Source of the DNA: Candidatus Pyrohabitans jungbluthii
GTDB taxonomy: Archaea; Hydrothermarchaeota; Hydrothermarchaeia; Hydrothermarchaeales; BMS3B
DNA length: 64,000 nt
Direction: 5' to 3'
Assembly: GCA_002010065.2 (NCBI GenBank)
Contig: MTMD02000007.1
Coordinates: 1-64,000 of the forward strand
Of the stretch, positions 14,608-41,161 are shown piece after piece. A program made the position numbers and the translations under genes. The stretch's first letter is position 1; each line of letters starts with the position of its first letter. The notes beneath the pieces are model-generated. The model had not been told where the DNA came from, did no database searches, and was given only the letters and a program-made list of their open reading frames with translations.

Positions 14608-17600
14608 ATGAGCTCAAGAAAGGGGGTACTCTCTCTAATTACCTTTGGTCTGGTAATGACCATGTTGTGGGGCGCGGTAAGCGCCTACCATCTAACCGCC
14701 TCTACGAGCAAGATTCTGTACGAGAAGGCGGATTCACTGGTGATAAGTGGCACAGTGGAAACCAGTAGTTCAGTTACAGTTTACGTGGAAGTTTACAACT
14801 CCTCGGACAATCTTGTAGAAAGTGGGAATACTACAAGCGTTGCCGCGGGCAATATCTCCACTTTCTCGGTGTCCATACCTCTGGCAAACTTCTCACCGGG
14901 CAGCTATTATGCACTGGTTTACCACACACCTGGCGACAGCGTCAGGCTTGAGTTCGATGTTGTGGAGAAGATAGTGCTCTTCAAGATCCGTCTTATCAAC
15001 TCTTCTGATAGCGTCGTGATGGTTAACACCAGCACCGTAGTGACTGATGCCGGCTACCTAGGCGGTAACTTCTCCGATTTCCTTGCGGCTGGCTACGAGG
15101 TGCACTACGGCAACCGTAACGTGCTCGAAGGCGGCAAGCTTGCCCACTTTGTACTTGTGAATGAGAGTGCCCCCGATGTATTCGATACCGTATACGTGGA
15201 CGACGACCCGCGATTTGAGCTGTACAATTCTCTTGAGGACAACTCCTCTTCACCAATGGTTGAAACCCCCCTGAAGAAGGGCGATTCCGTTGGGGATTAT
15301 ATCGTCGCTGATATTGAGTTCACTTCCGGCAACAAGGTGCTCCTCGCCAAGCCGCGCTCCTCACCGATTTATACAGGCGGCGAAAAGGTGTACTTCATGG
15401 TGGTGGCGAGGGATAAGGTGGGCAACATCCTCAGCGGCGAGAGCATTAAGGTTGACCTGCGCTACTCCAACGGCACGATTATCTCCTCCACCTCCGGCGT
15501 AATTCAGAACGGCTACTTCGTCGGGAACTTCACAGCTCCCGACCTCGCCGGGACGTATTTAATAACTGTAAACAACACCCTTGGGATGGAGGTCTTCAGT
15601 GTAGAAGCCTTCAAGCTCTTCGGGAAGATTACTGATATAAACGACAATCCAACGGCGGTTTTTGCTCCCAATCCTGTAGTGAAGCTTACCGCCATAGCCA
15701 AGGACTTAAACGGCAACCTGCTCACCCTGAACAGCGCCCAGGCAAGAGTGGTGTATCCCAACGGTACGCAGACTACAGTGCAGCTCAGCCAGACTGAGCA
15801 GGGGCTATATTCGGGAGAACTAGACCTTAAGGGTGCGCCTACAGGCGACTACGGCGTAACCTTCCGCGGAAGCTATGGCTCTACCACTCAGGAGGTCTCC
15901 CTTGGCTTCACCATCGCAGAGAGCAGGGCGGAGCTTTACGCGGTGAATGTGGAGTTCTTAGACCAGGTGGATGAAGGTGGCATATTCGTGAGCGCCTTCC
16001 ACCCGCAGAAAGACGTAACCCTGCTTGCGATTCTCAGCGATGTTACGAAGGGCGGGCTAATGGCTTCTGGTCCTGAAGGGGCGGGTATCATAGACATAGA
16101 CGACCCCTCAACATCAGAGGACGAGTGCAACACCAGCGTTGAGCTGATAGAGCTTAAGGACGACCGTGAGGTTTCATACCTGGGCAACGTCACTGTGCAG
16201 ATAATGAACCTCTCCAACTTTATGAACTACCTCGCACAGTCGGGAGTTCAGCCTGGTGACGAAGGCCCGCCTAAGGAGATGCTGAGCCAGTGTATGGTGG
16301 TTATTAGCAACCTCTCCAAGCAGGGCGCCTACAGGGCTAAGGTGAGGATTACCCACAACAGCGAAAGCAGCGTCGCCGGCACGACCTTCGGGGTGCAGGA
16401 GCTCTACGCCTACGGCTCCACCGTAGATTTCAAGGGCGAAGAGTTTGGATTTAACACTCCAAACTCAACAATAAGGGTAAAGCTCCACGTGCAGGACCTG
16501 CTCACTAGAGAGTTCCTCCCGCCCGAGAGCATCATAAGCGCCAATATAGTAAGTTTAAGGCGGGAGTTCCCGAGCTTCCAAGATGTGCCAGTGAGCGATA
16601 TTGCAACCACTGTTGAGGTCAACGGGGGTGTACTCTCATTTAAGGCGCCCAACATGGAGGGCTTCTTCTCCATGAAGTTCAGGTTCAAGGCGAATGTGAG
16701 CAACAAAATTAAGGAGGGCGTGGGCAGCGCCTTCTTCATGCTCAAGAAGTACATCATCTGGGCGGAGCCCCAGTGCACAGGCGGCGGCTTTGGACCGTGT
16801 GTGTTCTCCGGCAAGGGCAACGTATCCCTCAAGGTGTACATCGCAGACAGCAGCAAAGGTTCGCTCCTCGACAGAGGCGCTACCTCCTCTGCGCTGTGCT
16901 CCACCTGCGACGGCTTGGCGGTAAAAATAAGCATGCTCAGAAACGACCAGCTGGGTAAGGAAATTCCATCCTCGGAGTTTACAATCTACGGCGGCAGCGT
17001 TACCAACGGTACGGCAACGCTCAACATAAGCTCCACCACCGGAGGTCTCACCTCCGGGTGGTACGGTGCCGACATAGAGGTGTACAATCCCGCCGATCCC
17101 AACGAGAGCTACTTCGGCTTCGGCTGGTTTGAGGTGCGAAACTTCTTCGTTGAGGTTATGCCTGTCAGCGTGGACAAAGCGACGGGCAACCTCACCGCCA
17201 GTTGGGGCTGGGAAGGCAACACCTACGCGGTTAACCAGTCGATAGCCTTTGCGGTGATACCGCGCGACCCCTTCAACTGGGGTATCCTGCCCATTCAGAA
17301 TGTGACCATCGCCAGCGTGCAGCGCGTTGATATGTGGCCGCCGGTGGAGGCGAATTACAAGCTTGTGGACATCTCCAATAAGCTGGTTTATATTGACATG
17401 GGCGGGTTTAAACAGGGTGTGAATGTGACGGTAGTAAACATCACCGGCATTGAAAAGGAGGGCTCCTACAGGGTCAACGTCAAGGTGACCACCGCAAATG
17501 GCTCCGACATAGGCACCATGTGGTTCGACGTGGCGAGCTTTCAGGTTAATGTCTACTACCGCGGCATGTATGAGTGGCCGCCCACCTTCGGAAGCAATGA

Positions 17601-20439
17601 GAACCTGACGGTGAATGTCACCGCATTTGAATTTGATGGCTCACCTCACGAGCTTAATCAGAATGAGACGCGCTTAGCCGGCTTCTTCGACATAAAGCGC
17701 GGACGCCCGCTGAAACGCAACTATACCACAGTCTGCTCAGCAAATTCGTGCAACATCAGCATAGACCTCTCTGGCTTGGAGAGCGGCGAGTACGAGGCGA
17801 GGTTGAAGATCGTCGATACGAAAGGTGCTGAGAAGGAAACGGGCGTGTGGTTCATGGTGCGCAACCTGATAATAGCAGTGCCCAGCATCGAAGAAGCATG
17901 GCTGTGGCAGAGCGATACCGCGAAGAAGGAGATAAGGCTGGACGAGTTCATAGACACAAATATATTTGGTGAACTTGTGCCACCACCGGGCAACCACTCC
18001 AGCAACTACTCGGGCTGCGTTGACAACATGATAGAAGACCCAGGATTCTTCTGGGAGCTGAACATTTCCCAGCGCCAGATGTGCTTCTTCCACAACACCA
18101 CCCACCTTTGGGTTAGCTTAAATGCGAACTTCTCCAACGCGAGCGGCTCCGCGCCGGTGGGTGGGATAATAACCGACCCGTATGGTGGCAAGTGGAAGGT
18201 GGATAACCTGAACAAGGAGAAGGTCACTCTGCGCGGCATCAATGTGCTCGCAAAGACGGGTGCATGGCTCAACGCCTCACTCTCCAAGAGCGGAATAATA
18301 AAGCTGGGCAGGATGGAGGAGCAGTGGCTGGGAGGCTGGGATCCCAGCACGGGAATGCCGCGTGGGCTCGACCTGAATGGCGATGGCTACACTAATGGCA
18401 CTGCCTACATAGCGATTGCAGACTCGGTCACAGCCGGAATCTACGACACCCTGTTCTTCTCCTTCGATGGCAACTTCACCAGCTACGGCTCCGTGAATGA
18501 CGCTCCTGCTCAGCGAACCTTCGCCAACGGCAAATTTACACTCCTCAGCATAGACCCGCGCGCCGACAGGGTGAGGATATACACCAGAAGCAAGGGCGAC
18601 TGGGCAGAGCTGGGTGACGTCCGTCTTGGCGATGTGGTAAACGTACCGGTGATGGTGACACAACCTGATGGCACTCCTGTGGAGGTGAACGTCACCATAA
18701 GGCATGTGAGGAAGGAGAGCCTCACGGGTCCGCCACAGTTCATAACCCTCTCTTCTCCTGAGACTACCAGCATAAATGGCACCGGCGAGGTGCAGTTCAA
18801 CCTAAGCAAGCACAACCTGGGTTCTGGCATATATGCCTTTGAGATAGAGGTGCAGGTTGGCGATACTGTGGAGATACTCGAGGAGTGGATGTGGCCTCGG
18901 GTAACTGTGCGCGCCTTCCTGGTGAGTAGTGACCAGGGCGCTGCCGCATACGTGGGCGAGTTCAAGCCTCTGCCAACCTACGCCTTCGACTGGAGAACCT
19001 ACGGAGGAGACATACCTCAGCTGTTTGAGGTGACAGGTGGGGTCAACTTCTCCATGGTGATGGACCATTTCTATGGCTTAGGATCTCCTTTGAGCGGTTG
19101 CACAGAGCCAAGTGATGCAGGAAGCGGTACCAACTACACCATAGAAAGCCAGTTCCTGAGAGACACCAACTCCGGCTACTACTACTATCTGACCACCGCC
19201 AACGCCAGCACGCTCTGGATAAAGAAGGGCAACTGCAACTTTACCAGCGGCGCTACCGTGAAGAGCGTGAATGAGTCCATAAACATAACCCTGAACGGCA
19301 GAACCTACATGATGAGTGTGCTCGCCGCTGACGCCAACGCGGGCGGTCAGGCGCTCGTGGTAATAGGCGTGAGGGAGGACAACCTCAATCCGAATATCCT
19401 CAACAATCCGCTGACGCAGGATGGCGGCAAGCGCTGGAACATTGTGTCCTTCAATATAGGCGGCACGACGTACAACGCAATCCTCGCGAATGCGAGCGTG
19501 GACTATCCAATGTGCGACATCTGGTGGATACCCGACTGCGCAAAGGCGGCATACTTCACCACCGATGGCAACTACTCCGCATCGCAAGAAACGCTGATAG
19601 GCGAGGAGATAATGCCGGGCAGCGAACTCTACCTCGCCAGGATAGGAGCTTCGCCATGGGACGGCATAGTTATTGCAAACTCGTCGCAGGTTGGAGTCAT
19701 GCCTGGACTCGACATAATCGTGGAAGACAACTACAATGCGACGTTCGCAGCGTTAAACGAGAGCCAGCTCAGTGTTGACCTGAACCTAGACAACGACACC
19801 AGCGATGTGTTCTACGCCGTAACCTTCGACGACTATCCGGATGGAACCGCCAAGGCGACCAGCATACTTGTAGACGATGACCTCAACATCACCCAGGACT
19901 GGTGGGGAGAGGGCTGGAATGGGTCCCTGATAATCAACCCCAAGGACTTCTACGGCAATGAGAGCGGAACCGCGGAGGTCAGGGGCAACATGCCCACCGC
20001 AATGTGGGGAGGTTCCCTAGGATTTGCACCCTGGAACGACTTCATGCCGTATGAGGAACAGCCGTGGTGGGACATAAAGATGTACAACGGCACCCACATG
20101 CTGCTGATGAAGAACAAGTGGTCCATCAAGCCAGAGGAAAACATGACCTTTGTAATCCGTGCATACGACTTCGATCAGAAGCCTATTGTGAGTGCAAACC
20201 TCACCGTTGATAAGGTTGTGATGTTCACACCTCTGGGTCCGAAAGTGCTGGAAGAGGGCACCCACTACGTCCTCAACAAAGTGCAGGATACCACAGATGC
20301 GAATGGCTATGGAATAATCACAATCGCTCCCAAAGACGGCACCTGGGAATACGGTGACTACATGGTGACCATCACCGTTACCAAGAGCGGAGGCAGCGAG
20401 AGGGTTGATATGTGGTTCCAGGTAGGAGGTGGGTGGTAA
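14608..20439 (+). CDS. Giant secreted surface protein with Ig-like repeats (S-layer candidate)
   Basis: 1943 residues. A signal peptide (about 1-26, ending AVSA) is followed by beta-rich extracellular sequence with very many N-x-S/T sequons. Repeating modules of roughly 100-150 residues resemble Ig/macroglobulin-like folds; several end with a similar strand, such as GWFEVRNFFVEV, MWFDVASFQVNV, VWFMVRNLIIAV and DMWFQV. Cysteines are few and paired (QCTGG...PCVF; CSTC). The protein ends directly after a repeat, without a membrane helix or sorting tail. The next gene, 2 bases on, carries such a tail, so the two likely form one surface assembly. S-layer function is inferred from size, signal peptide and glycosylation sites. 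Confidence 0.85.
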   Translation: MSSRKGVLSLITFGLVMTMLWGAVSAYHLTASTSKILYEKADSLVISGTVETSSSVTVYVEVYNSSDNLVESGNTTSVAAGNISTFSVSIPLANFSPGSYYALVYHTPGDSVRLEFDVVEKIVLFKIRLINSSDSVVMVNTSTVVTDAGYLGGNFSDFLAAGYEVHYGNRNVLEGGKLAHFVLVNESAPDVFDTVYVDDDPRFELYNSLEDNSSSPMVETPLKKGDSVGDYIVADIEFTSGNKVLLAKPRSSPIYTGGEKVYFMVVARDKVGNILSGESIKVDLRYSNGTIISSTSGVIQNGYFVGNFTAPDLAGTYLITVNNTLGMEVFSVEAFKLFGKITDINDNPTAVFAPNPVVKLTAIAKDLNGNLLTLNSAQARVVYPNGTQTTVQLSQTEQGLYSGELDLKGAPTGDYGVTFRGSYGSTTQEVSLGFTIAESRAELYAVNVEFLDQVDEGGIFVSAFHPQKDVTLLAILSDVTKGGLMASGPEGAGIIDIDDPSTSEDECNTSVELIELKDDREVSYLGNVTVQIMNLSNFMNYLAQSGVQPGDEGPPKEMLSQCMVVISNLSKQGAYRAKVRITHNSESSVAGTTFGVQELYAYGSTVDFKGEEFGFNTPNSTIRVKLHVQDLLTREFLPPESIISANIVSLRREFPSFQDVPVSDIATTVEVNGGVLSFKAPNMEGFFSMKFRFKANVSNKIKEGVGSAFFMLKKYIIWAEPQCTGGGFGPCVFSGKGNVSLKVYIADSSKGSLLDRGATSSALCSTCDGLAVKISMLRNDQLGKEIPSSEFTIYGGSVTNGTATLNISSTTGGLTSGWYGADIEVYNPADPNESYFGFGWFEVRNFFVEVMPVSVDKATGNLTASWGWEGNTYAVNQSIAFAVIPRDPFNWGILPIQNVTIASVQRVDMWPPVEANYKLVDISNKLVYIDMGGFKQGVNVTVVNITGIEKEGSYRVNVKVTTANGSDIGTMWFDVASFQVNVYYRGMYEWPPTFGSNENLTVNVTAFEFDGSPHELNQNETRLAGFFDIKRGRPLKRNYTTVCSANSCNISIDLSGLESGEYEARLKIVDTKGAEKETGVWFMVRNLIIAVPSIEEAWLWQSDTAKKEIRLDEFIDTNIFGELVPPPGNHSSNYSGCVDNMIEDPGFFWELNISQRQMCFFHNTTHLWVSLNANFSNASGSAPVGGIITDPYGGKWKVDNLNKEKVTLRGINVLAKTGAWLNASLSKSGIIKLGRMEEQWLGGWDPSTGMPRGLDLNGDGYTNGTAYIAIADSVTAGIYDTLFFSFDGNFTSYGSVNDAPAQRTFANGKFTLLSIDPRADRVRIYTRSKGDWAELGDVRLGDVVNVPVMVTQPDGTPVEVNVTIRHVRKESLTGPPQFITLSSPETTSINGTGEVQFNLSKHNLGSGIYAFEIEVQVGDTVEILEEWMWPRVTVRAFLVSSDQGAAAYVGEFKPLPTYAFDWRTYGGDIPQLFEVTGGVNFSMVMDHFYGLGSPLSGCTEPSDAGSGTNYTIESQFLRDTNSGYYYYLTTANASTLWIKKGNCNFTSGATVKSVNESINITLNGRTYMMSVLAADANAGGQALVVIGVREDNLNPNILNNPLTQDGGKRWNIVSFNIGGTTYNAILANASVDYPMCDIWWIPDCAKAAYFTTDGNYSASQETLIGEEIMPGSELYLARIGASPWDGIVIANSSQVGVMPGLDIIVEDNYNATFAALNESQLSVDLNLDNDTSDVFYAVTFDDYPDGTAKATSILVDDDLNITQDWWGEGWNGSLIINPKDFYGNESGTAEVRGNMPTAMWGGSLGFAPWNDFMPYEEQPWWDIKMYNGTHMLLMKNKWSIKPEENMTFVIRAYDFDQKPIVSANLTVDKVVMFTPLGPKVLEEGTHYVLNKVQDTTDANGYGIITIAPKDGTWEYGDYMVTITVTKSGGSERVDMWFQVGGGW

Positions 20440-32694: not shown

Positions 32695-33204
32695 ATGAGG
32701 ATGAGGCTTATCGTATACCACGCTAAGCAATGCTCGCCAAAGAAGTGCACAGCTTTAAAGCTCTCCCGTTTTGCGCTGGTCAAGCTGGTGCACAGCGCAA
32801 AGGCAATCCCACGAAATGCGATTGTGCTCAACCCCTTTGCCGCTAAGCCTCTCTCGCCAGCTGAGGATGCAAATGCCACAACCTTGGTGGCGCTGGATTG
32901 CTCCTGGGAGCATGCCAAGGAGGTTTTCCGCAGCTATCGCAGCAGAGCCAGGCATCGCTCTTTGCCCCTGCTGGTAGCCGCTAATCCCGTGAACTACGGA
33001 AAAATCGCCAAGCTAAGCACCGTCGAAGCTTTAGCTGCGGCGCTCTACATCCTGGGCGAGCGGGAGCATGCGGAGAAGCTGCTTTCAAAATTTAACTGGG
33101 GGCACAGTTTCCTTGAGCTCAACCGTAGCCTGCTGGAAGACTACGCCAGCGCTTCAAGCATGGAAGCTTTGCTTGAGGTGCAGCGGGAATACTTCGGCGT
33201 CTAA
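32695..33204 (+). CDS. tsr3: Tsr3-like rRNA aminocarboxypropyltransferase (DUF367)
   Basis: 169 residues (or 167 from the second ATG). Matches the Tsr3/DUF367 group: HAKQCSPKKCTALKL, AIPRNAIVLNPFAAKPLSPAED, LVALDCSWEHAKE, RHRSLPLLVAANPVNYGK and LSTVEALAAALYILGE. These proteins transfer the aminocarboxypropyl group from SAM to a small-subunit rRNA uridine. It begins 2 bases after the GTPase stop and is probably in its operon. Confidence 0.92.
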   Translation: MRMRLIVYHAKQCSPKKCTALKLSRFALVKLVHSAKAIPRNAIVLNPFAAKPLSPAEDANATTLVALDCSWEHAKEVFRSYRSRARHRSLPLLVAANPVNYGKIAKLSTVEALAAALYILGEREHAEKLLSKFNWGHSFLELNRSLLEDYASASSMEALLEVQREYFGV

Positions 33205-33323
33205 GCTTCGCCGGCTAACCTCGCCTTGAAGGGTCCGGAGAATATCTTCAGGTTGAGAATCTCCTCCTCGGTTATGATTGAAGGGTCGTGAGGTAATAGA
33301 TACGCTGCACGTCTTTCCAACAT
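33201..33323 (-). CDS. Possible 40-residue protein in the tsr3-DUF169 gap
   Basis: A minus-strand frame from the ATG at 33323, overlapping the tsr3 stop, reads [20 protein letters not shown] and continues for another 20 residues to EA. Its composition looks protein-like (alternating charged and hydrophobic, no bias), and no other gene explains this 203-bp gap. There is no clear ribosome site, only TATA-like CTTTATC about 18 bases upstream. Low certainty. Confidence 0.35.
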
Positions 33324-33407
33324 TATCAGAGGCGATAAAGATTGCCGCTCAATCCTTCCGAAGGGATGTAACCAAGATGAGCCGTTGTGTGGAGTGATGG
33401 GTACTTT

Positions 33408-34313
33408 TTATTTTTTCTTAACCTTTGCGGCAAGCTCTTCAATAAGCTCTTTCAAACCCTTCCCCGAGCTTATGTCGAAACCTTCGCCGTCCTTGAAGGT
33501 TGCATAGAGGTCTGTCCACGCGCCGCGCTTTCTCGCCTGGAAGGGTGGAGTTACCTCAACCTCACCTTTAACAGGGAAGTGGATTGTTACATAGCTTATC
33601 TTACCGTTAATGTCCTTGTTCAGGTAGATGCGCACATTTTGCGAGTCAACCCTTCCAAAGAAGTAGTCTATGCCCCGCTCAAAGCCAAGCTCAGAGAACA
33701 CCTGGATTACTCGCGGCGGAAGGTCGCTGGTCTTGCACCCGCAAAGCGCTCCGCAGCTCTTTTCGAGAGCTTTAACTTTAGTCTCGAGCTCCTTGAAGAC
33801 CTCCAGAGGCGCGCCCAAGATAACCTCGCTGTCCTTGTAGTCAGCGAACATTCTGGCGCCGCCGCACAGGAAGGTTACATTTGCCTTCCCGCTCTTAAGC
33901 GGCTCTGCAATAACCTCACCGCACACGGCAATTTCGCCGGCGAACTTCGCTTCGATGCCGTGGAGAAGTGCCGCCGCCTCCATCACTTGGCGCGGGGTGG
34001 CTATCATCAGAACCACATCCGGGTCTGGAATCTCCTCCACGGGCGCGATGAGCACCGCCTTGGTTTCAGCGGGCTGTATCCTCGGCTGGATGTCTATGAA
34101 CATGGGCTCCTGAAAGCCCAGAGCGATCAGCGACTGGTGGCACTCCTCATCCTCGGCGCGCATGAGTATCGTCTCACCCAACGCGGCGCGCCTAACAAAC
34201 TCGCAGAATTTTCCGGGCTTCGCCGGCGTGGGATAACCTTCTGGAATCTCCTTAAACAGCTTCACACCCACAAGGCGATACTTGCTACCGAAATAGGCGC
34301 GTATGCTCTCCAT
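33408..34313 (-). CDS. DUF169 family protein
   Basis: 301 residues with the DUF169 pattern (COG2043): VGVKLFKEIPEGYP, CEFVRRAALGETILMRAEDEECHQS, VLMIATPRQVMEAAALLHG and CGEVIAEPLKSGKANVTFLCGGAR. Two cysteine clusters are notable: CGALCGCK near residue 190 and the single Cys in CGEVI. The family is common in methanogens and sulfate reducers, but no reaction is established. It is last in the threonine-synthase/MoaD/E1/TusA operon, 2-3 bases after the TusA-like gene, so it may act on the sulfur or redox cofactor handled there. Confidence 0.88.
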   Translation of the reverse strand: MESIRAYFGSKYRLVGVKLFKEIPEGYPTPAKPGKFCEFVRRAALGETILMRAEDEECHQSLIALGFQEPMFIDIQPRIQPAETKAVLIAPVEEIPDPDVVLMIATPRQVMEAAALLHGIEAKFAGEIAVCGEVIAEPLKSGKANVTFLCGGARMFADYKDSEVILGAPLEVFKELETKVKALEKSCGALCGCKTSDLPPRVIQVFSELGFERGIDYFFGRVDSQNVRIYLNKDINGKISYVTIHFPVKGEVEVTPPFQARKRGAWTDLYATFKDGEGFDISSGKGLKELIEELAAKVKKK

Positions 34314-34315
34314 GG

Positions 34316-34561
34316 CTAATCCTCGAAAGCGGGAATCTCTATATAAATTTCGTATGTTCTTTCTGCCACCTGCTTAACCTCTAGAACCTTGTATCCCTTG
34401 CCCTCCTGAGCCAGGCTGCGCGGTATACTCTCCACCGCCGGCGGATAGTCCACTATCACCTTGAGCTTCCCGCCGCCCGAGTAGCCTATCTCCTCAGCTT
34501 TAATCTTGGTGTACACAAAGGTATCAGGGCACTTCTCGCCGCGAAGGTCTAAAGTCTCCAT
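34316..34561 (-). CDS. TusA/SirA-family sulfur carrier-like protein
   Basis: 81 residues from the ATG at 34561, which overlaps the preceding stop as TGATG. TusA signature near the N-terminus: TLDLRGEKCPDTFVYTKIKAE, with the conserved Cys-Pro (Cys about residue 10) that carries persulfide sulfur. The usual CPxP becomes CPDT. The rest fits the small alpha/beta fold ending in ERTYEIYIEIPAFED. TusA proteins relay sulfur in tRNA thiolation or in dissimilatory sulfur metabolism. Its location after an E1 enzyme and MoaD-like carrier favours a persulfide donor role. Confidence 0.88.
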   Translation of the reverse strand: METLDLRGEKCPDTFVYTKIKAEEIGYSGGGKLKVIVDYPPAVESIPRSLAQEGKGYKVLEVKQVAERTYEIYIEIPAFED

Positions 34562-35385
34562 CACTCATCACCCTCCGTCACACCGGAAGCTTCACTTCCG
34601 GGTAACACTGTGCATACATCTTCTACGGGTTTGGGAATAAAGTGCTCTCCACATGCGGTGCAGTCGTCTCGCTTCGCCACTCTAACCTTCTCAAAGCGCA
34701 TCTCGTCCACATTTATTATCAGCAGCTGATTCTTCAGTCCAATCTCCAGTCCAGCGAGGTAACGTATCGCCTCACTCGCCTGTATGGCACCGACGATGCC
34801 CACGACAGAGCCCAGAATACCTGCTTCTCTGCAGGTGGGTATCATGCCCGCGGGTGGCGGCTCGGGGAATACGCATCTAAAGCATGCGGTCTCGCCGGGG
34901 ATTATGCTCATCGCCCTGCCCTCGTACATCAGCGCGGCGCCGTGAAAGAGAGGCACGCGGTTAACCACGGCGGCGTCGTTAACAGCGTAGCGCACAGCGA
35001 AGTTGTCTGTTCCGTCGACGATGGCGTCATAGCCCTTGAGCAGCTCAAAGGCATTGTCGTAGGTTACCTTCTCGTTTATCCCCTCTATCTTAATCTCCGG
35101 GTTTATCTCACTTAGCCGCTTTGCCGCCATCTCCGCCTTGGGTTTGCCAACATCCTCGGGGGTGTAGAGGAACTGCCTGTTCAGGTTGCTCATCTCTATG
35201 CGGTCAAAATCGAAGATGTGAATCTCGCCCACGCCAGCCAGAGTGAGGTAAGTCGAAACCGGGCAGCCCAGTCCACCTGCCCCGGTTACAGCTACTTTGG
35301 CCTTCTTAAGCCTAGACTGCTCCTTGGTACCGAAGTCCGGAAGGATGAGCTGCCTTGAATAGCGCTTTATCTCATTCAGATTCAT
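34561..35385 (-). CDS. E1-like adenylyltransferase (MoeB/ThiF/HesA family)
   Basis: 274 residues. ATP-binding VAVTGAGGLGCPVSTYL, then RIEMSNLNRQFLY, then GTDNFAVRYAVNDA, with CFRC and CTACGEHF forming the zinc knuckle and PTCREAGILGSVVG holding the candidate catalytic Cys. MoeB/ThiF enzymes adenylate the C-terminal Gly-Gly of a ubiquitin-like sulfur carrier so it can become a thiocarboxylate. A matching MoaD-like protein ending in GG lies two genes upstream. The C-terminal 20 residues are unconserved and overlap a GC hairpin in DNA. Confidence 0.93.
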   Translation of the reverse strand: MNLNEIKRYSRQLILPDFGTKEQSRLKKAKVAVTGAGGLGCPVSTYLTLAGVGEIHIFDFDRIEMSNLNRQFLYTPEDVGKPKAEMAAKRLSEINPEIKIEGINEKVTYDNAFELLKGYDAIVDGTDNFAVRYAVNDAAVVNRVPLFHGAALMYEGRAMSIIPGETACFRCVFPEPPPAGMIPTCREAGILGSVVGIVGAIQASEAIRYLAGLEIGLKNQLLIINVDEMRFEKVRVAKRDDCTACGEHFIPKPVEDVCTVLPGSEASGVTEGDE

Positions 35386-35842
35386 GCTCTCGACTCTCCT
35401 TCAGGTAATCTTTAATCTCCCTGACGAACTGGTTGCCCAGCTCTTCAATGCGGAGCTCAAACTCCTCGCCCAGCGTGTCGCCCCTGCCTATGCCGGGGCA
35501 CTCGTCGGCGCAGCGAAGCTTGAGTACCAGCTCGTCCGCGTAAATTATCCCATCGAACAGGAAGGGATACATCTGGCAAGAGAGGGGCTTCACCCCAAGC
35601 TCATGAAGCTCACAGCTCAGATCCTCGCGCAGGAAGATGCATTTTCCAGCCTTGCCCTTGAGGCGGAAGAGCCCCTTCTCAGGCTTGAGCTCTGCGAACT
35701 CCTCCGGTGCTTTGCCTGTTGCACGGGAGATTCGCTCAACTCCTCGCGAGGTGACCACTCTGCCCTCAACGCAGCACTTGGCTCCGCACTCGCGGTAAAC
35801 GCAGGAGAAGCGCTCCACTTTGTGCGGCGAGTATATTATCAC
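35372..35842 (-). CDS. YkgJ-like Cys-cluster (zinc/iron-chelating) protein
   Basis: 156 residues. Cysteines spaced as in the YkgJ/UPF0153 family: FSCVYRECGAKCC at the N-terminus, CIFLREDLSCELHELGVKPLSCQMYPF in the middle, and LKLRCADECPGIG. The eight-Cys set is proposed to bind zinc or an Fe-S cluster; the function is not established. It overlaps the E1 gene start by 14 bases, implying coupled translation in the sulfur-carrier operon. A role in metal or redox modification is possible. Confidence 0.85.
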   Translation of the reverse strand: MIIYSPHKVERFSCVYRECGAKCCVEGRVVTSRGVERISRATGKAPEEFAELKPEKGLFRLKGKAGKCIFLREDLSCELHELGVKPLSCQMYPFLFDGIIYADELVLKLRCADECPGIGRGDTLGEEFELRIEELGNQFVREIKDYLKESREHESE

Positions 35843-35845
35843 CGC

Positions 35846-36115
35846 TCAGCCTCCAGAGACCGCGGGTAAGATGCTTATAACGTCATCCTCGGCGACCTCT
35901 GTGTCTAAGCCTTTCTTGAAGCGCACATCCTCGTTGTTGTGGAAGATGTTTATAAACTGCTTTATCTCGCCGTTCTCAATTATGCGCTCCTTGAAGCCAG
36001 GCTTCGCTTTGTCTATGTTTTCTATAATCTCGCGTATCGTTTTGCCGCTCGCCTGTATTTCGGGCTTACCATCGCTGAACTTTCTAAGGGGGGTAGCAAG
36101 CCTAACTGTTACCAT
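35846..36115 (-). CDS. MoaD/ThiS-family ubiquitin-like sulfur carrier
   Basis: 89 residues with a beta-grasp fold: VTVRLATPLRKFSDGK, IREIIENIDKAKPGFKERII, INIFHNNEDVRFKKGLDTEV and DDVISILPAVSGG. It ends exactly in Gly-Gly, so no protease trimming is needed before adenylation. The insert FHNNEDVRF is the usual loop before the last strands. It overlaps the threonine-synthase-like gene by 7 bases and lies two genes before the E1 enzyme. It is probably a thiocarboxylate sulfur donor. No other molybdopterin gene is nearby. Confidence 0.92.
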   Translation of the reverse strand: MVTVRLATPLRKFSDGKPEIQASGKTIREIIENIDKAKPGFKERIIENGEIKQFINIFHNNEDVRFKKGLDTEVAEDDVISILPAVSGG

Positions 36116-37356
36116 GCGACCACCTCCTTCTCGAGCTTCTTTTCTACTAACTCGCGAAATGCGTCGAGATCAGGCTTTATAACAGGCGGCTTTGTTAAGT
36201 AGTTCGCAAGAACGTCCTGCGTCTTTAAGCCATTGCCTGTGATGTACGCAACAACACTCTCATCGCGGTCGATTTCTCCCGCCTCAACCAGCTTTTTAAG
36301 CGTGGCTATCACAACACCGCCCGCGGTTTCTGTGAATATACCCTCTGTCTTTGCGAGAAGCTTTATCCCCTCGATGATCTCGGGATCGCTGGCAGCGCCG
36401 GCTGTGCCTCCGCTCTCCTTAATCACCTTTACTGCATAGTAGCCGTCCGCTGGATTGCCTATGGCAAGGCTCTTCTCTATCGTATTCGGCTTCACGGGCT
36501 TAATGGGCTCGCCGGTGCGGAACGCCGTGGTTACAGGCGAACATCCCTCGCTCTGGGCTGCGGTAATGCGCGTGTCTGCGCTGTCTATTAAGCCTAGAGT
36601 CTCAAACTCCTTCAAGCCTTTGTATATCTTTGTGAGCAGCGAACCACTGGCTACGGGGATAATCGCCCGCTCTGGAGCGCGCCACCCAAGCTGCTCCGCA
36701 ACCTCGTATCCTAGGGTTTTTGAGCCCTCTGAGTAGAATGGCCTCAAGTTTATGTTCACAAAGCCCCAATTATAGTAGCCTGCGATCTCAGTGCACAGGC
36801 GATTGACATCGTCGTAGTTGCCCTCCACGCTTATAAGGTTGGGGTCGTAGGCAAGGGTCTGGATTATCTTCCCGAGGTTGAGGTTCGCTGGTATGAAGAT
36901 ATAGCAGTTCAGCTTCGCCTTAGCAGCGTGCGCTGCCACGCTGTTCGCCAGGTTACCTGTGGAGGCGCAGCCCACCGTATCGAAGCCAAACTCTATCGCC
37001 TTGCTCACCGCCACGCTCACAACGCGGTCCTTGAATGAGAATGTGGGGTTAACTGAGTCGTTCTTTATGTAAAGCTCCTTTAAGCCGAGAGCTTCCGCTA
37101 AATTATCAGCGCGGTGAAGCGGTGTGAAGCCTGCCTGCAGGTCAACGATGCTCGAATCACTCTCCACAGGCAGGAGTTCGCGGTAGCGCCACAGCGTGGG
37201 TGCACGCTTCTCAATCTTCTCTTTGCTCAGCTTCTCCTTTATCGCCTCGTAGTCGTACTCTACCTCAAGCGGACCAAAGCACTCCTCGCAGATGCTTATC
37301 GCCTCTACGGGGTAGCGCTTTCCACAGTTCCTGCACTTTAGGCTAATGACCGTCAT
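36109..37356 (-). CDS. Threonine synthase-family PLP enzyme linked to a sulfur carrier
   Basis: 415 residues from the ATG at 37356, preceded by GGAAGGTG. An N-terminal zinc-ribbon-like segment (LKCRNCGK, CEECF, residues 7-27) precedes the fold-type II PLP core. The Schiff-base Lys is about residue 109 in NPTFSFKDR, followed by CASTGNLANSVAAHAA and TAGAASDPEII. Sequence is nearest threonine synthase, which makes Thr from O-phosphohomoserine. The operon partners (MoaD, E1, TusA) are unexpected for that reaction. By analogy with CysM/CysO, the enzyme could put carrier-bound sulfur onto an activated serine or homoserine. Threonine synthase remains the default call. Confidence 0.85.
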   Translation of the reverse strand: MTVISLKCRNCGKRYPVEAISICEECFGPLEVEYDYEAIKEKLSKEKIEKRAPTLWRYRELLPVESDSSIVDLQAGFTPLHRADNLAEALGLKELYIKNDSVNPTFSFKDRVVSVAVSKAIEFGFDTVGCASTGNLANSVAAHAAKAKLNCYIFIPANLNLGKIIQTLAYDPNLISVEGNYDDVNRLCTEIAGYYNWGFVNINLRPFYSEGSKTLGYEVAEQLGWRAPERAIIPVASGSLLTKIYKGLKEFETLGLIDSADTRITAAQSEGCSPVTTAFRTGEPIKPVKPNTIEKSLAIGNPADGYYAVKVIKESGGTAGAASDPEIIEGIKLLAKTEGIFTETAGGVVIATLKKLVEAGEIDRDESVVAYITGNGLKTQDVLANYLTKPPVIKPDLDAFRELVEKKLEKEVVAW

Positions 37357-37412
37357 GGTATCACCTTCCAGAATACAGATATGTAACAATATATATAATT
37401 TTCGGTAAAACT

Positions 37413-37429
37413 TATTACCAAAAGTAATA
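37413..37429. promoter_or_regulatory. Palindrome TATTAC-CAAAA-GTAATA upstream of the sulfur-carrier operon
   Basis: A perfect 6-bp-arm inverted repeat about 15-25 bases upstream of the minus-strand TATA-like stretch (ATTATATATAT, 37389-37400) that serves the threonine-synthase-family gene. It is placed as a regulator binding site. The regulator is unknown. Confidence 0.4.
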
Positions 37430-37463
37430 TTAAAAAATAGAGAAAATAGAAAAGCTCCCAGCT

Positions 37464-37649
37464 TCAGCAGGAGCTATGCGAGATTGCACCCTCTGGACAC
37501 GCCTCTACGCAGGCGCAGCACTCCACGCAGTCGTCGGCGTTCACCACTACGCTCTTGCCGTCGTTCAGCTCATAAACCGACGAGGGGCAGGTGTCAACAC
37601 AGGTTCCACAGCCGACGCACTTTGCTTCGTCAACGCTTATGTCTACCAT
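37464..37649 (-). CDS. 2[4Fe-4S] ferredoxin
   Basis: 61 residues from the ATG at 37649, 8 bases after GGAGG-containing sequence; an in-frame TTG at 37658 would leave no spacing. Two cluster motifs: CVGCGTCVDTCP and CVECCACVEACP. The second is CxxCxxC with one extra Cys. It carries low-potential electrons and lies close to dsrAB, so it may supply or accept their electrons. Confidence 0.92.
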   Translation of the reverse strand: MVDISVDEAKCVGCGTCVDTCPSSVYELNDGKSVVVNADDCVECCACVEACPEGAISHSSC

Positions 37650-37821
37650 TCTCTTCAACCTCCGACTTTTCAGGGTTATCGCTGCTTATTTAAACTTTTT
37701 GGTGACCTCGCAGAGCACGAGGCACTTAAGCCCAGAGGTTTAACAAGTTAAAACTGAACATAACAAAATTTAAATATGTTAAGCTAAAGCTATGCTTGGA
37801 AAACTAAAAGGAGGCTAAGTA

Positions 37822-38028
37822 ATGGCGAACATAGAGGTTGATCTCGACGCGTGTGTGGGTTGTGGCACCTGCGAGTCTCTCTGCCCAAGCACCTTCCAGC
37901 TTCAGGACGGCAAGAGCTACGTGATTGGTGACGGCTCAGACTGCGACCTGGAAGAAGTAGTAAACAGCTGCCCGACCAGCGCAATAACTGTCGAGGGCAT
38001 AGGTTCTGCTGAGAGAAAGCAGGTGTAA
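37822..38028 (+). CDS. Single-cluster [4Fe-4S] ferredoxin
   Basis: 68 residues. A cluster motif CVGCGTC in the first 20 residues, then the final cluster Cys in SCPTSAI. Cys21 in ESLCP and the Cys in GSDCD could form the disulfide known from Pyrococcus ferredoxin. It begins with AGGAGG about 10 bases upstream and converges with dsrB. A TATA-like AAATATG lies in the AT-rich gap before it. It is a likely electron carrier for the sulfite reductase or other oxidoreductases. Confidence 0.9.
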   Translation: MANIEVDLDACVGCGTCESLCPSTFQLQDGKSYVIGDGSDCDLEEVVNSCPTSAITVEGIGSAERKQV

Positions 38029-38148
38029 ATACCCCTCCACCTTTTTTAAATTTTAAAACTTACAAAATTTTATTCTGCTTTTATCAAAATTGGTTATTTA
38101 AAAAGTATCTAAATTTTAAACACAAAAAAAGACAAAAGGGGGAGGGCT

Positions 38149-39261
38149 TTAGGAGAACTTCTTCATCTCCTTGCCCTTCACGCGAGCGCCGGCGTTCATG
38201 TCGCGGATGTTGAAGATGTAGTCGTCGATGTGCTTGTGGGTGAACTCCAAGCCAGTGCGTTCGAAGAACTCCGTCCAGCCGATGCGCTCTATCCACTCAC
38301 CCATGCGCTCGTCCGGCTTGGCATCGCTGGCCCAGGCGTCGATTATCTTCTTAACTGTCTCCACAACCTCTGGCCAGCGTGGCGGGTTGTTGGGTATGAA
38401 AGGCACCGCGAGGCGCGAGAAGGCGGGACCTCCTCTGGTGTTGGAGATCTTGCCACCCACCCAGATTGAAACGCCGTCGTTCTTGGGGTCAGCCAGTGGT
38501 GTGCCTGGGCAGAGACCATAGCAGATACCGCAGTACATACACTTCTCGCCGTCTATGCTAATGCTCCTTATGGTGGTGCCGTCCTCCTTCTTTATCATCT
38601 TGGGCTTTATTGCATAGGTTGGGCACGCGGCGATCATGCTGGGAATCTCGCACGCCTTGCTAACCACTTCGTCAATAACCGTCGGTGGGCGGCGGTGAAC
38701 GCCTAGGATAGCGATATCCGAGCAGTGCACTGCACCGCACATGTTAAGGCAGCCTGAGACAGCTATTGTGAGGCGCGTGGGAAGCTTCTCGCTCACGAAG
38801 TAGTCGTATAGCTCGTCCATGAGCACCTTCTGAAGACCTGGTGAGTCAGTTGCAGGTGTGTGGCAGTGCACCCAGCCGGTGCATGCTACGATACTGCGCA
38901 CAGTCCTGCCGGTACCACCTACTGGGAATCCCAGCTCCGCAAGTTCCTTCTTCAGGGGCTCCACGTTATCTTTATTGTCCAGGATGAACTCAACGCTGTG
39001 CCTAGAGGTAAAGCGCAGGTAGCCGTTGGCATACTTGTCAGCAAGGTCGCACAGCTTGAGCACAGTCTCGCTAGCGATAAACTTGGGCTGCCCGGCGCGG
39101 ACAGTGTAGGCTTCCTCACCGCTCTCGCTTACGTGCTTGTAAACCCCTGGCTCAAGCTCCTCGTGGTACTTCCACTTGCCGTAATTGCGCTGCACCACAG
39201 GGGGGAGCATCTCCTTATAATCTGGTGGACCAAAATCCAGCTCATCAAAGGAAAGCGCCAT
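38149..39261 (-). CDS. dsrB: Dissimilatory sulfite reductase beta subunit
   Basis: 370 residues, normal length. N-terminal FTSRHSVEFILDNKDNV, then the siroheme/Fe-S region CTGWVHCHTPATDSPG and SGCLNMCGAVHCSDIAILGVHRR, and a ferredoxin domain with CMYCGICYGLCPGTPLADPKNDG. These are the conserved DsrB motifs, with all cluster cysteines present. With DsrA it reduces sulfite by six electrons at a siroheme-[4Fe-4S] site. It starts 13 bases after dsrA, with GGAGGTGAAAG ahead of its ATG. The small dsrD gene, usually downstream of dsrB in sulfate reducers, is missing here. Confidence 0.97.
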   Translation of the reverse strand: MALSFDELDFGPPDYKEMLPPVVQRNYGKWKYHEELEPGVYKHVSESGEEAYTVRAGQPKFIASETVLKLCDLADKYANGYLRFTSRHSVEFILDNKDNVEPLKKELAELGFPVGGTGRTVRSIVACTGWVHCHTPATDSPGLQKVLMDELYDYFVSEKLPTRLTIAVSGCLNMCGAVHCSDIAILGVHRRPPTVIDEVVSKACEIPSMIAACPTYAIKPKMIKKEDGTTIRSISIDGEKCMYCGICYGLCPGTPLADPKNDGVSIWVGGKISNTRGGPAFSRLAVPFIPNNPPRWPEVVETVKKIIDAWASDAKPDERMGEWIERIGWTEFFERTGLEFTHKHIDDYIFNIRDMNAGARVKGKEMKKFS

Positions 39262-39274
39262 CTTCTTTCACCTC

Positions 39275-40444
39275 CTACTCCTCATCCACCTGTACTTCGC
39301 CCGGGAAGTAGAACCAGAACGGGTTGTTCCTGGGCGCCTTCACCATCGTTGGCAGTGGGTCAAGTCCCACTTCGTGGAGGAACTTGCCAGCGCCTATGCG
39401 GTATATGGTTTCGCCGATTCTCTCCTTCGCTCTGCCGTTCTCATCCCACCAGTCGAGAAGCTTGTACATCAGCTCTTTAAGCTCAGTGTACGGAGGCTCC
39501 AGCTTCATGAAGGGTATCAGCGTCCACGCCAAGAAGGCACCGTAGCGACCTCTCGCACGTCCGCCAACGAGTATCGTGGCACCCCTGTCGTCTCCTGGGG
39601 AGAGTGCCTTGGGCATCTTCTGCAGGCAGTACATGCAGCGCACGCACTCGTCGTTGTTTATCTTGAGCTCATTACCATCCCAGCTCATCGCATTTGTGGG
39701 ACAGTTTTTAACTATGTACTCCACATCCACCTTGCCACTCTTGGCGTAGTTCCTTACTTCCTCCTGATCTATCTTGATGTCATCGCGCCAAGTACCCATT
39801 ATAACGAAGTCTGCTCTGGGAACACCTGCAACGCAATCGGTGGGGCAGCCGGAGATCTTCACCTTGAACTTGTACGGGAAGCGCGGGCGGTGCATGTCGT
39901 TGAGGATCTCTTCGTCGGTCATCAGAGTGTGGTATATATCGTTGGTGTCTATGCACGCCATTTCACAGCGCGCGGGGCCGATACAGTTGCTCGCAGTACG
40001 GAAGTCGCCAGCGCTTCCTCCAATGTCCCAGTGCTCCTTCGCTGCCTCGTCGAAGAAGGGTTCAATGTTCTCAGTTGGTATGCCCACAACCTGCAGGTCT
40101 CCAGTGGCGCCGTGGAAGTTCATCAAACCAGAGCCGTACTTGTTCCACAGTTCAACAAGCTTGCGCAGCTTCTTTGTGCTGTAGAACCACCCGGCGGGCT
40201 GGATGAACCTTATTGTGTGGGCATCTGCGAGGATGTCACGCCTGTCAGAGACCCTGCCAATAACACCAGCGTCGTAGCCGGGAACACCCACCATGCCGCC
40301 ATGGGTCCAGTGGGTCATTTTGTCTTCGTAGTTCAGCTCATAGAGCTTGAGCAGCCCAGTGTAGCCCGTCTTTTTAATCTCTTTGACTATACTGGGCCAT
40401 GGCCCCTTTTCAAGCTCGTCCAGAAGAGGGGTTTCCGATGCCAC
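39275..40444 (-). CDS. dsrA: Dissimilatory sulfite reductase alpha subunit
   Basis: 389 residues from a GTG at 40444 (GGAGGTGAAATGAG upstream). It has WTHGGMVGVPGYDAGVIGRVSD near the start, the siroheme set NCIGPARCEMAC and ISGCPTDCVAG, and a ferredoxin domain with CVRCMYCLQKMPKAL, in which the fourth ligand position differs from CxxCxxCxxxCP. The catalytic sulfite-binding pattern and both ligand sets are kept. It is the first gene of dsrAB. The TATA-like stretch at 40514-40528 on the minus strand gives about 45 bases of leader. Confidence 0.97.
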   Translation of the reverse strand: MASETPLLDELEKGPWPSIVKEIKKTGYTGLLKLYELNYEDKMTHWTHGGMVGVPGYDAGVIGRVSDRRDILADAHTIRFIQPAGWFYSTKKLRKLVELWNKYGSGLMNFHGATGDLQVVGIPTENIEPFFDEAAKEHWDIGGSAGDFRTASNCIGPARCEMACIDTNDIYHTLMTDEEILNDMHRPRFPYKFKVKISGCPTDCVAGVPRADFVIMGTWRDDIKIDQEEVRNYAKSGKVDVEYIVKNCPTNAMSWDGNELKINNDECVRCMYCLQKMPKALSPGDDRGATILVGGRARGRYGAFLAWTLIPFMKLEPPYTELKELMYKLLDWWDENGRAKERIGETIYRIGAGKFLHEVGLDPLPTMVKAPRNNPFWFYFPGEVQVDEE

Positions 40445-40560
40445 CTCATTTCACCTCCTGCCTTAGTTACAACAAAATCTACCTACGCCTAGCGAATTGA
40501 ATTAAAGTTTTTTTGGTATATATAATTTTTCATTAAAGTGACCAGTCTGTGCAAAGTTGC

Positions 40561-40614
40561 CCACAACCGTGCACAATTTTACCTCGTTAGGCTACGCTGC
40601 GCCTATGGTTGTGG
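40561..40614 (+). promoter_or_regulatory. Structured leader ahead of the HemA-like operon
   Basis: Outer arms CCACAACC (40561-40568) and GGTTGTGG (40607-40614) and inner arms TAGGC (40588-40592) and GCCTA (40601-40605) can stack on the 3' side with one bulge base. The stem ends 4 bases before the ATG at 40619. If transcribed, it would sit on the start region and could act as a control element. No known riboswitch class was recognised. Confidence 0.4.
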
Positions 40615-40618
40615 TTTT

Positions 40619-41161
40619 ATGGACAAGGAGGAATTTCTGGAGAGGTTCTACCTCGACGAGGAGGAGAGGCACAAGCGTGCGGAGCGCATAAGCAAGGGGA
40701 TGGTGCGCTACGAGCGCAAGAAGAACGCCATTTTCACCTTTAAAGACAGCGTTGCCAAAATCGACCTCTGCGAGGTGTGCAGGCATCCCAAGGGCGTGAC
40801 CTATACCCTGTGCGAGGTTGTGCCGAGCTTTGAAAATGTGGACGTTGGCGAGATGCTCGTCGAGGCGAGGGAGAAGGCAGAGGTGTTCTGCAAGAGCGAG
40901 GGCACCAGGGGGCAGTGCATAATCAACATAGTGATACCCCCGGAGCCTAAGATGATTATGGAGCTTGGTGAGCACCTCGACGAGATGACAAAGCTTGGAA
41001 ACTTCGCTGTTACCGTGTACGACACGAAGAGCGGGAAGATGGGAATGCTTGTGATAGATGAGAGCTTCCTTTCAGAGCTGCGCGAGGACCCCGATTACAA
41101 GGGGATGAGCGACGCCGAGATATTCACGAATTTTATGATGAACTACGCTGAGCTACTATGA
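40619..41161 (+). CDS. Uncharacterised cysteine-containing protein, divergent from dsrAB
   Basis: 180 residues from the ATG at 40619. The frame extends upstream to 40538, but those residues overlap the structured leader. Family not recognised. The N-terminal ~45 residues are charged and helical; then DLCEVCRHPKGVTYTLCEVV carries three Cys. The middle reads FCKSEGTRGQCIINIVIPPEPKM, and the C-terminal part is alpha/beta (NFAVTVYDTKSGKMGMLVIDESFL). It is the first gene of an operon with the HemA-like protein, 4-base overlap (ATGA). Its position suggests a tetrapyrrole- or sulfite-related role; unproven. Confidence 0.7.
   Translation: MDKEEFLERFYLDEEERHKRAERISKGMVRYERKKNAIFTFKDSVAKIDLCEVCRHPKGVTYTLCEVVPSFENVDVGEMLVEAREKAEVFCKSEGTRGQCIINIVIPPEPKMIMELGEHLDEMTKLGNFAVTVYDTKSGKMGMLVIDESFLSELREDPDYKGMSDAEIFTNFMMNYAELL

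Follow-up and report, generated by a model that had tools for sequence, protein, structure and literature searches.

A conserved operon of Hydrothermarchaeia links a threonine synthase-family enzyme to a sulfur carrier and its charging proteins: a probable archaeal form of the MetM/MetO route to homocysteine

In Mycobacterium tuberculosis, the thiocarboxylate of the carrier CysO feeds the fold-type II pyridoxal phosphate (PLP) enzyme CysM, with involvement of the JAMM protease Mec+. Wolinella possesses a carrier-dependent route to homocysteine, the precursor of methionine, formed by HcyS, HcyD and HcyF. For the MetM/MetO pair of Streptomyces albulus, the MetO thiocarboxylate is reportedly the sulfur donor, metM is said to be controlled by an S-adenosylmethionine (SAM) riboswitch, and the route has reportedly been noted in other bacteria and archaea. 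The Streptomyces homocysteine synthase MetM converts O-phosphohomoserine to homocysteine and has homologues in cyanobacteria (Hasebe et al. 2024, Appl Environ Microbiol e01247-24, as cited in PMC12172450). Here, we analyze a six-gene operon of the deep-sea archaeon Candidatus Pyrohabitans jungbluthii (Hydrothermarchaeota) that resembles these systems. It is located at positions 33408–37356 of a 64,000-nucleotide stretch (assembly GCA_002010065.2, contig MTMD02000007.1, positions 1 to 64,000), which is called the window in the following. We interpret the operon as encoding a MetM/MetO-type homocysteine synthase that depends on a sulfur carrier, together with the proteins that charge this carrier, a reading based on comparative genomics to which we assign a probability of roughly 75%.

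The operon consists of the following genes, listed in the direction of transcription, with families assigned by Pfam and NCBIfam models:

36109..37356, minus strand: ThrC2, PLP enzyme of the threonine synthase family and candidate MetM-type homocysteine synthase (PALP 1e-69; thrC model above cut-off; MetM-type clade with support 100/100)
35846..36115, minus strand: MetO-like sulfur carrier of the MoaD/ThiS family, 89 amino acids, with a Gly-Gly end (ThiS 2.5e-13; C-terminus SILPAVSGG)
35372..35842, minus strand: CxxCxxCC protein, YkgJ-like, PF03692 (CxxCxxCC 5e-7)
34561..35385, minus strand: MoeB/ThiF-type E1 without a rhodanese domain (ThiF 1.6e-83; motifs given below)
34316..34564, minus strand: TusA-family persulfide carrier with the conserved Cys-Pro (TusA 1.6e-15)
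33408..34313, minus strand: long-form DUF169 protein, 301 amino acids, with an extra C-terminal part (DUF169 4.6e-32; seven invariant cysteines)

The genes are tightly packed. ThrC2 and MoaD overlap by 7 nucleotides, YkgJ and E1 by 14, and E1 and TusA by 4, while 3 nucleotides separate MoaD from YkgJ and 2 separate TusA from DUF169. The original prediction had named these six families, and the models agree with it in family, place and strand. The six-gene order is kept across Hydrothermarchaeia, with the complete set present in at least 12 genomes; the clustering is therefore not due to chance. As in the S. albulus pair, a threonine synthase-family PLP enzyme, with O-phosphohomoserine as its predicted substrate, is followed directly by a Gly-Gly carrier, which here overlaps by 7 nucleotides and ends in SGG. 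In contrast to MetM/MetO, the archaeal operon adds E1, TusA, the YkgJ-like protein and the long DUF169 protein, and in sister families also SepCysS. The YkgJ and DUF169 proteins, which had been proposed as new parts, are retained as such relative to MetM/MetO. The resemblance to CysO/CysM/Mec+ lies in the combination of a ubiquitin-like carrier, a fold-type II PLP enzyme and a JAMM protein; here, however, the PLP enzyme belongs to the ThrC and not the CysM family, the JAMM gene lies outside the operon and the predicted product is homocysteine. A carrier, a rhodanese-less E1 and SirA/TusA joined to sulfur assimilation are also found in the Wolinella route and in the class 4e ThiS/JAB/E1/SirA/sulfite reductase operons (PMC1779556), although the latter name O-acetylhomoserine sulfhydrylase and leave threonine synthase unmentioned (Iyer et al. 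2006).

ThrC2 scores as thrC, above the TIGR00260 cut-off, and not as cysM, and its nearest solved structures are ordinary threonine synthases. Nevertheless, it is not the housekeeping threonine synthase of this organism. The host genome (1.99 Mb, 99.95% complete) encodes six PALP proteins: an IlvA-type threonine ammonia-lyase, ThrC1, ThrC2, two TrpB proteins and a cysteate-synthase-like protein adjoining a sulfopyruvate-decarboxylase-like gene. The TrpB and cysteate-synthase-like proteins were named by sequence and neighbors, the others by model scores and neighbors; this survey of the host genome revealed neither CysK nor CysM. The gene for ThrC1 (TIGR00260, 378 bits) immediately precedes that for an ApgM-like protein, which is recognized by the model TIGR02535, “proposed homoserine kinase”. 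Together with the homoserine dehydrogenase encoded in the same genome, these two proteins would supply both the substrate of ThrC2 and threonine. The absence of a second thrC would have spoken against the original prediction, but a separate ThrC1 is present, and relatives within the class repeat the ThrC1/ThrC2 pair, with identities between orthologues of 66–98% for ThrC2 and about 45% for ThrC1.

Five motif regions split the ThrC2 clade from ThrC1: NPTGSFKDRG of ThrC1 changes to NPT[F/L/W/Y/H]SFKDR[V/P], ASTGNTSAS to STGNLA, NSxNPxRLEGQKT to N[IV]N[LIVM]RPYYxEGSKT, the PLP-phosphate loop GNxGN to [AG]SGSL or close variants, and RIGxPVN to AIGNPADG. The host ThrC2 carries NPTFSFKDRV, STGNLA, FVNINLRPFYSEGSKT, ASGSLLTKI and SLAIGNPADG at these positions. 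All four canonical ThrC motifs (TGSFKDRG, ASTGNTSAS, NPxRLEGQKT and GNxGN) are altered in ThrC2 and retained in ThrC1. In a maximum-likelihood tree of 62 rows, ThrC2 proteins of Hydrothermarchaeia, of two other archaea and of bacteria form one clade apart from ThrC1-type proteins (support 100/100), so that the suggested comparison with real ThrC places ThrC2 in a group of its own. As expected for a MetM-like enzyme, ThrC2 shares this clade with an actinobacterial MetM-type protein from Nonomuraea, which is 52.7% identical and whose gene is directly followed by a MoaD gene; it is this protein, and not the S. albulus MetM sequence itself, that anchors the MetM-type label of the clade. A search of plasmids for MetM returned one representative, from an actinobacterium.

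The linkage to a carrier gene extends far beyond the archaea. We collected 80 ThrC2 loci, one genome per species, 76 of which have enough downstream sequence. All 76 show a same-strand MoaD gene no more than 3 kb downstream of ThrC2, within 200 nucleotides in 57 cases. Rare linkage would have undermined the idea of a functional pair; instead, the linkage is seen across many phyla. Loci of Deltaproteobacteria/Myxococcota run from ThrC2 through siroheme sulfite reductase, TusA, MoaD, NIL domain, CysK and JAMM to E1, a Mariprofundaceae locus carries a sulfite reductase-TusA fusion, and in one further archaeon a MoaD-E1 fusion directly follows ThrC2 (G024, L035:6374-7699).

Some of these loci hold additional features. 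Genes of a Thi4 cluster occur in or near ThrC2-MoaD loci (L028:8121-8921, confirmed by the Pfam Thi4 model; L050:6842-7633; L036:3-689), a hint that thiamine thiazole synthesis may also draw on the relay. In the relative G013, two siroheme sulfite reductase genes and an F420-dependent FrhB-like gene are located shortly upstream of ThrC2 (L028:2431-5443). Several cyanobacterial loci (L047, L073, L083, L086 and others) encode a protein labelled threonine synthase that shows the MetM-type motifs and has MoaD as its neighbor.

The original prediction had left the product as either cysteine or homocysteine, and the evidence favors the latter. In 21 of 45 bacterial loci scanned, the SAM riboswitch RF00162 shares the strand of ThrC2 and immediately precedes either this gene or its operon. 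By scan batch, the counts are 5/12, 9/13 and 7/9, plus 0/11 in a cyanobacterial batch; these loci are not independent samples of phyla. None of the 12 cyanobacterial loci carries the element, compared with 21 of the 33 other loci. These riboswitches tie the gene to methionine supply. No RNA element, SAM riboswitch included, was found near the archaeal operon at positions 33000-41000 of the window, a difference from S. albulus metM that concerns regulation and is not needed for the chemistry. Alternative routes to homocysteine appear to be missing from the host: searches of its genome revealed neither HcyBio nor a full-length Cys_Met_Meta_PP enzyme (MetB/C/Y/Z). Partial PF01053 matches in this genome (up to 35 bits over about 110–150 residues) were rejected as aminotransferase cross-matches. 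One relative, G013, has a single full-length Cys_Met_Meta_PP enzyme, and G021, a relative in the class without ThrC2, has HcyBio.

If ThrC2 were instead a carrier-dependent cysteine synthase acting on O-phosphoserine, comparable to mycobacterial CysM with CysO, this would agree with the lack of CysK and CysM and with a carrier, an E1 and a JAMM protein encoded in trans that match the parts of the CysO route. But SepRS (749 bits) and SepCysS are both encoded in the host genome and cover its cysteine supply, bacterial ThrC2 clusters often carry a separate CysK, the orthologues are controlled by riboswitches that respond to methionine supply, and the family is that of threonine synthase, not CysK. 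We therefore consider a cysteine synthase improbable: homocysteine is far likelier than cysteine because SepRS/SepCysS already provide the latter and SAM riboswitches control the bacterial orthologues. With the riboswitches, the missing alternative synthases, HcyBio in the ThrC2-less G021 and cysteine otherwise covered, homocysteine is the best-supported product.

A number of observations weigh against a carrier-dependent homocysteine synthase, most of all results obtained in Microcystis. Its ThrC is 51.6% identical to MetM, and an adjacent metO-like gene is annotated as a sulfur carrier; the purified enzyme made threonine from O-phosphohomoserine and deaminated threonine, apparently without a carrier, and with sulfide gave only an unidentified peak near methionine (PMC12172450). 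Although it has been presented as a threonine synthase that moonlights, it is probably a member of the MetM-type cyanobacterial group. Further points are that G015 has ThrC2 and HcyBio together, that G020 carries ThrC2 without an adjacent MoaD, that in the genus of the host SepCysS is encoded outside the operon (C10:47483-48613 in the host genome), and that the support within Hydrothermarchaeota is of a genomic kind. Moreover, searches for the methionine synthase that would methylate homocysteine found neither MetE/Mes (PF01717) above the cut-off nor MetH/BHMT (PF02574) in 23 genomes, comprising the host and 22 relatives; Methanosarcina acetivorans likewise gave no match in the MetE/MetH control searches.

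The two in vitro activities of the Microcystis clade member, together with the score of ThrC2 above the TIGR00260 cut-off, could indicate that ThrC2 is a second threonine synthase or a threonine deaminase with incidental neighbors. This is unlikely given separate genes for ThrC1 and the IlvA-type enzyme, the changed PLP-phosphate and substrate loops, the constant linkage to MoaD and the SAM riboswitches.

E1, which is predicted to charge the carrier, is intact by its motifs: GAGGLG in the ATP loop, two pairs of CxxC and a TCREAG cysteine motif. Its lack of a rhodanese domain fits a separate TusA as sulfur donor, and rhodanese-less E1 proteins have been noted alongside SirA/TusA in operons for sulfur assimilation (Iyer et al. 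2006, PMC1779556). An alignment of the YkgJ-like protein shows the invariant cysteine motifs ECxAxCC, C, CxLH, CxMYPF and CPG; it possibly handles sulfide or persulfide, but this is a guess. Its structure model, with a mean predicted local distance difference test (pLDDT) score of 51, was too poor for use, and a search for sequence-related solved structures returned none for either the YkgJ or the DUF169 protein. The JAMM protease had been noted as not seen. It is indeed absent from the gene cluster, but a single JAMM/Prok-JAB gene with an intact HSHP...S..D motif is present in trans (C8:100872-101213 of the host genome), and JAMM matches occur in 22 of the 23 genomes.

Given that the host encodes five ThiS-family carriers, and that Thi4 lies inside the G013 operon with genes of the same cluster nearby in G044 and an Elusimicrobium, E1, MoaD and TusA might form a sulfur supply of general use, with thiamine synthesis (Thi4) or tRNA thiolation as an additional or even the main destination and ThrC2 as one client among several. 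We regard this as having a small chance: ThrC2 consistently accompanies this carrier subtype, Thi4 is found in few loci, and tRNA thiolation could use other carriers of the genome.

From gene content, order and orthology we infer the following chemistry for the host organism, including the roles of the YkgJ and DUF169 proteins. E1 would adenylate the Gly-Gly end of the MoaD-like carrier, and a TusA persulfide (or sulfide, possibly handled by YkgJ) would turn the adenylated carrier into a thiocarboxylate. ThrC2 would take O-phosphohomoserine from the threonine pathway, eliminate phosphate and add the carrier sulfur at the gamma carbon of a beta,gamma-unsaturated intermediate to give homocysteine; gamma addition is proposed on the basis of the reactions known for threonine synthase and cystathionine gamma-synthase. 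The JAMM protease may release homocysteine from the carrier adduct. The core of this scheme, with E1 loading the carrier and the PLP enzyme moving its sulfur onto an activated amino acid, had been anticipated and fits everything found. Finally, the long DUF169 protein may hand sulfur from the same relay to SepCysS for Cys-tRNA.

This last step derives from gene adjacency. In several sister families, SepCysS is the next gene after the operon (TIGR02539, 352 bits for the G016 copy). The long DUF169 gene directly abuts SepCysS, the two overlapping slightly or lying no more than about 10 nucleotides apart, in 11 genomes: ten Hydrothermarchaeia (G005, G007, G010, G012-G017 and G020, the last in the reverse order SepCysS-DUF169) and G044, an archaeon of another lineage. 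Some of these pairs sit at contig ends. In G044 the set is shuffled: one contig has DUF169-SepCysS at its end, and a second carries MoaD, E1, TusA and ThrC2 and ends in the rest of SepCysS; overlapping sequence suggests that these contigs are contiguous. Iteration of the SepCysS profile led into cysteine desulfurases in bacteria, and only archaeal full-length matches were used. The host SepCysS retains the cysteine pair and the third cysteine common to canonical SepCysS proteins. SepCysS-linked DUF169 proteins are mostly 301–342 residues long versus about 235–275 for frames elsewhere, and seven cysteines are invariant among the aligned long forms. The DUF169 model is of moderate quality (pLDDT 72), with low confidence in several cysteine regions. 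A fold match to the type III secretion chaperone SycT (E 1.7e-4) covers only ~110 residues, probably C-terminal, and is uninformative on function. DUF169 has been described as an occasional SepRS neighbor (PMC8762117), which ties it to the same pathway as here; unlike in that system, our DUF169 is the long form, abuts SepCysS and belongs to a MoaD-E1-TusA operon. We tentatively propose, as a possibility held with less than even confidence, that one E1-charged and TusA-fed carrier serves both the MetM-type enzyme for homocysteine and SepCysS for cysteine, with DUF169 as an adapter.

Upstream of the operon in the window lie the following genes:

37464..37658, minus strand: 2[4Fe-4S]-type ferredoxin, 5′ of ThrC2; possible electron supply, operon membership uncertain
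38149..39261, minus strand: dsrB, dissimilatory sulfite reductase beta, adjoining the operon only in this genus
39275..40444, minus strand: dsrA, dissimilatory sulfite reductase alpha

The arrangement of dsrB and dsrA (38149-40444) on the same strand, with two small ferredoxins between them and the operon, is conserved in the genus, and TusA proteins act in Dsr-type pathways elsewhere. A role of the operon in dissimilatory sulfur metabolism, with TusA as the link, is nonetheless very improbable and was set aside because sister families hold the six genes without adjacent dsrAB; a PLP amino acid enzyme and an E1-carrier pair also have no known Dsr role. Elsewhere, the window encodes a MutL-like mismatch repair protein, judged from its N-terminal sequence and uncommon in archaea (58823-60520), and a probable surface protein, read from an open reading frame of 1943 amino acids whose N-terminus resembles a signal sequence (14608-20439).

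Taken together, the operon is real, conserved and largely explained as a self-contained archaeal form of a route that was discovered recently. The pairing of enzyme and carrier has a precedent, since it matches MetM/MetO described in Streptomyces in 2024; new are the dedicated archaeal set of E1, TusA, YkgJ and DUF169 and the link to tRNA-dependent cysteine synthesis. A carrier-dependent homocysteine synthase would explain how homocysteine is made in an archaeal class whose genomes mostly lack the other homocysteine synthases included in our searches, and would extend the known range of the MetM/MetO route to archaea and about ten bacterial phyla. The annotation of a large “threonine synthase” clade, including the Microcystis protein described as moonlighting, would also be corrected, as its members are probably homocysteine synthases. 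To our knowledge, the physiological sulfur donor of SepCysS is unsettled, and the operon gives a concrete proposal for it; if true, it would reveal this donor and a carrier-dependent step in aminoacyl-tRNA synthesis. The operon of sister archaea, running into SepCysS, suggests that a single sulfur-delivery machine may serve both sulfur amino acids.

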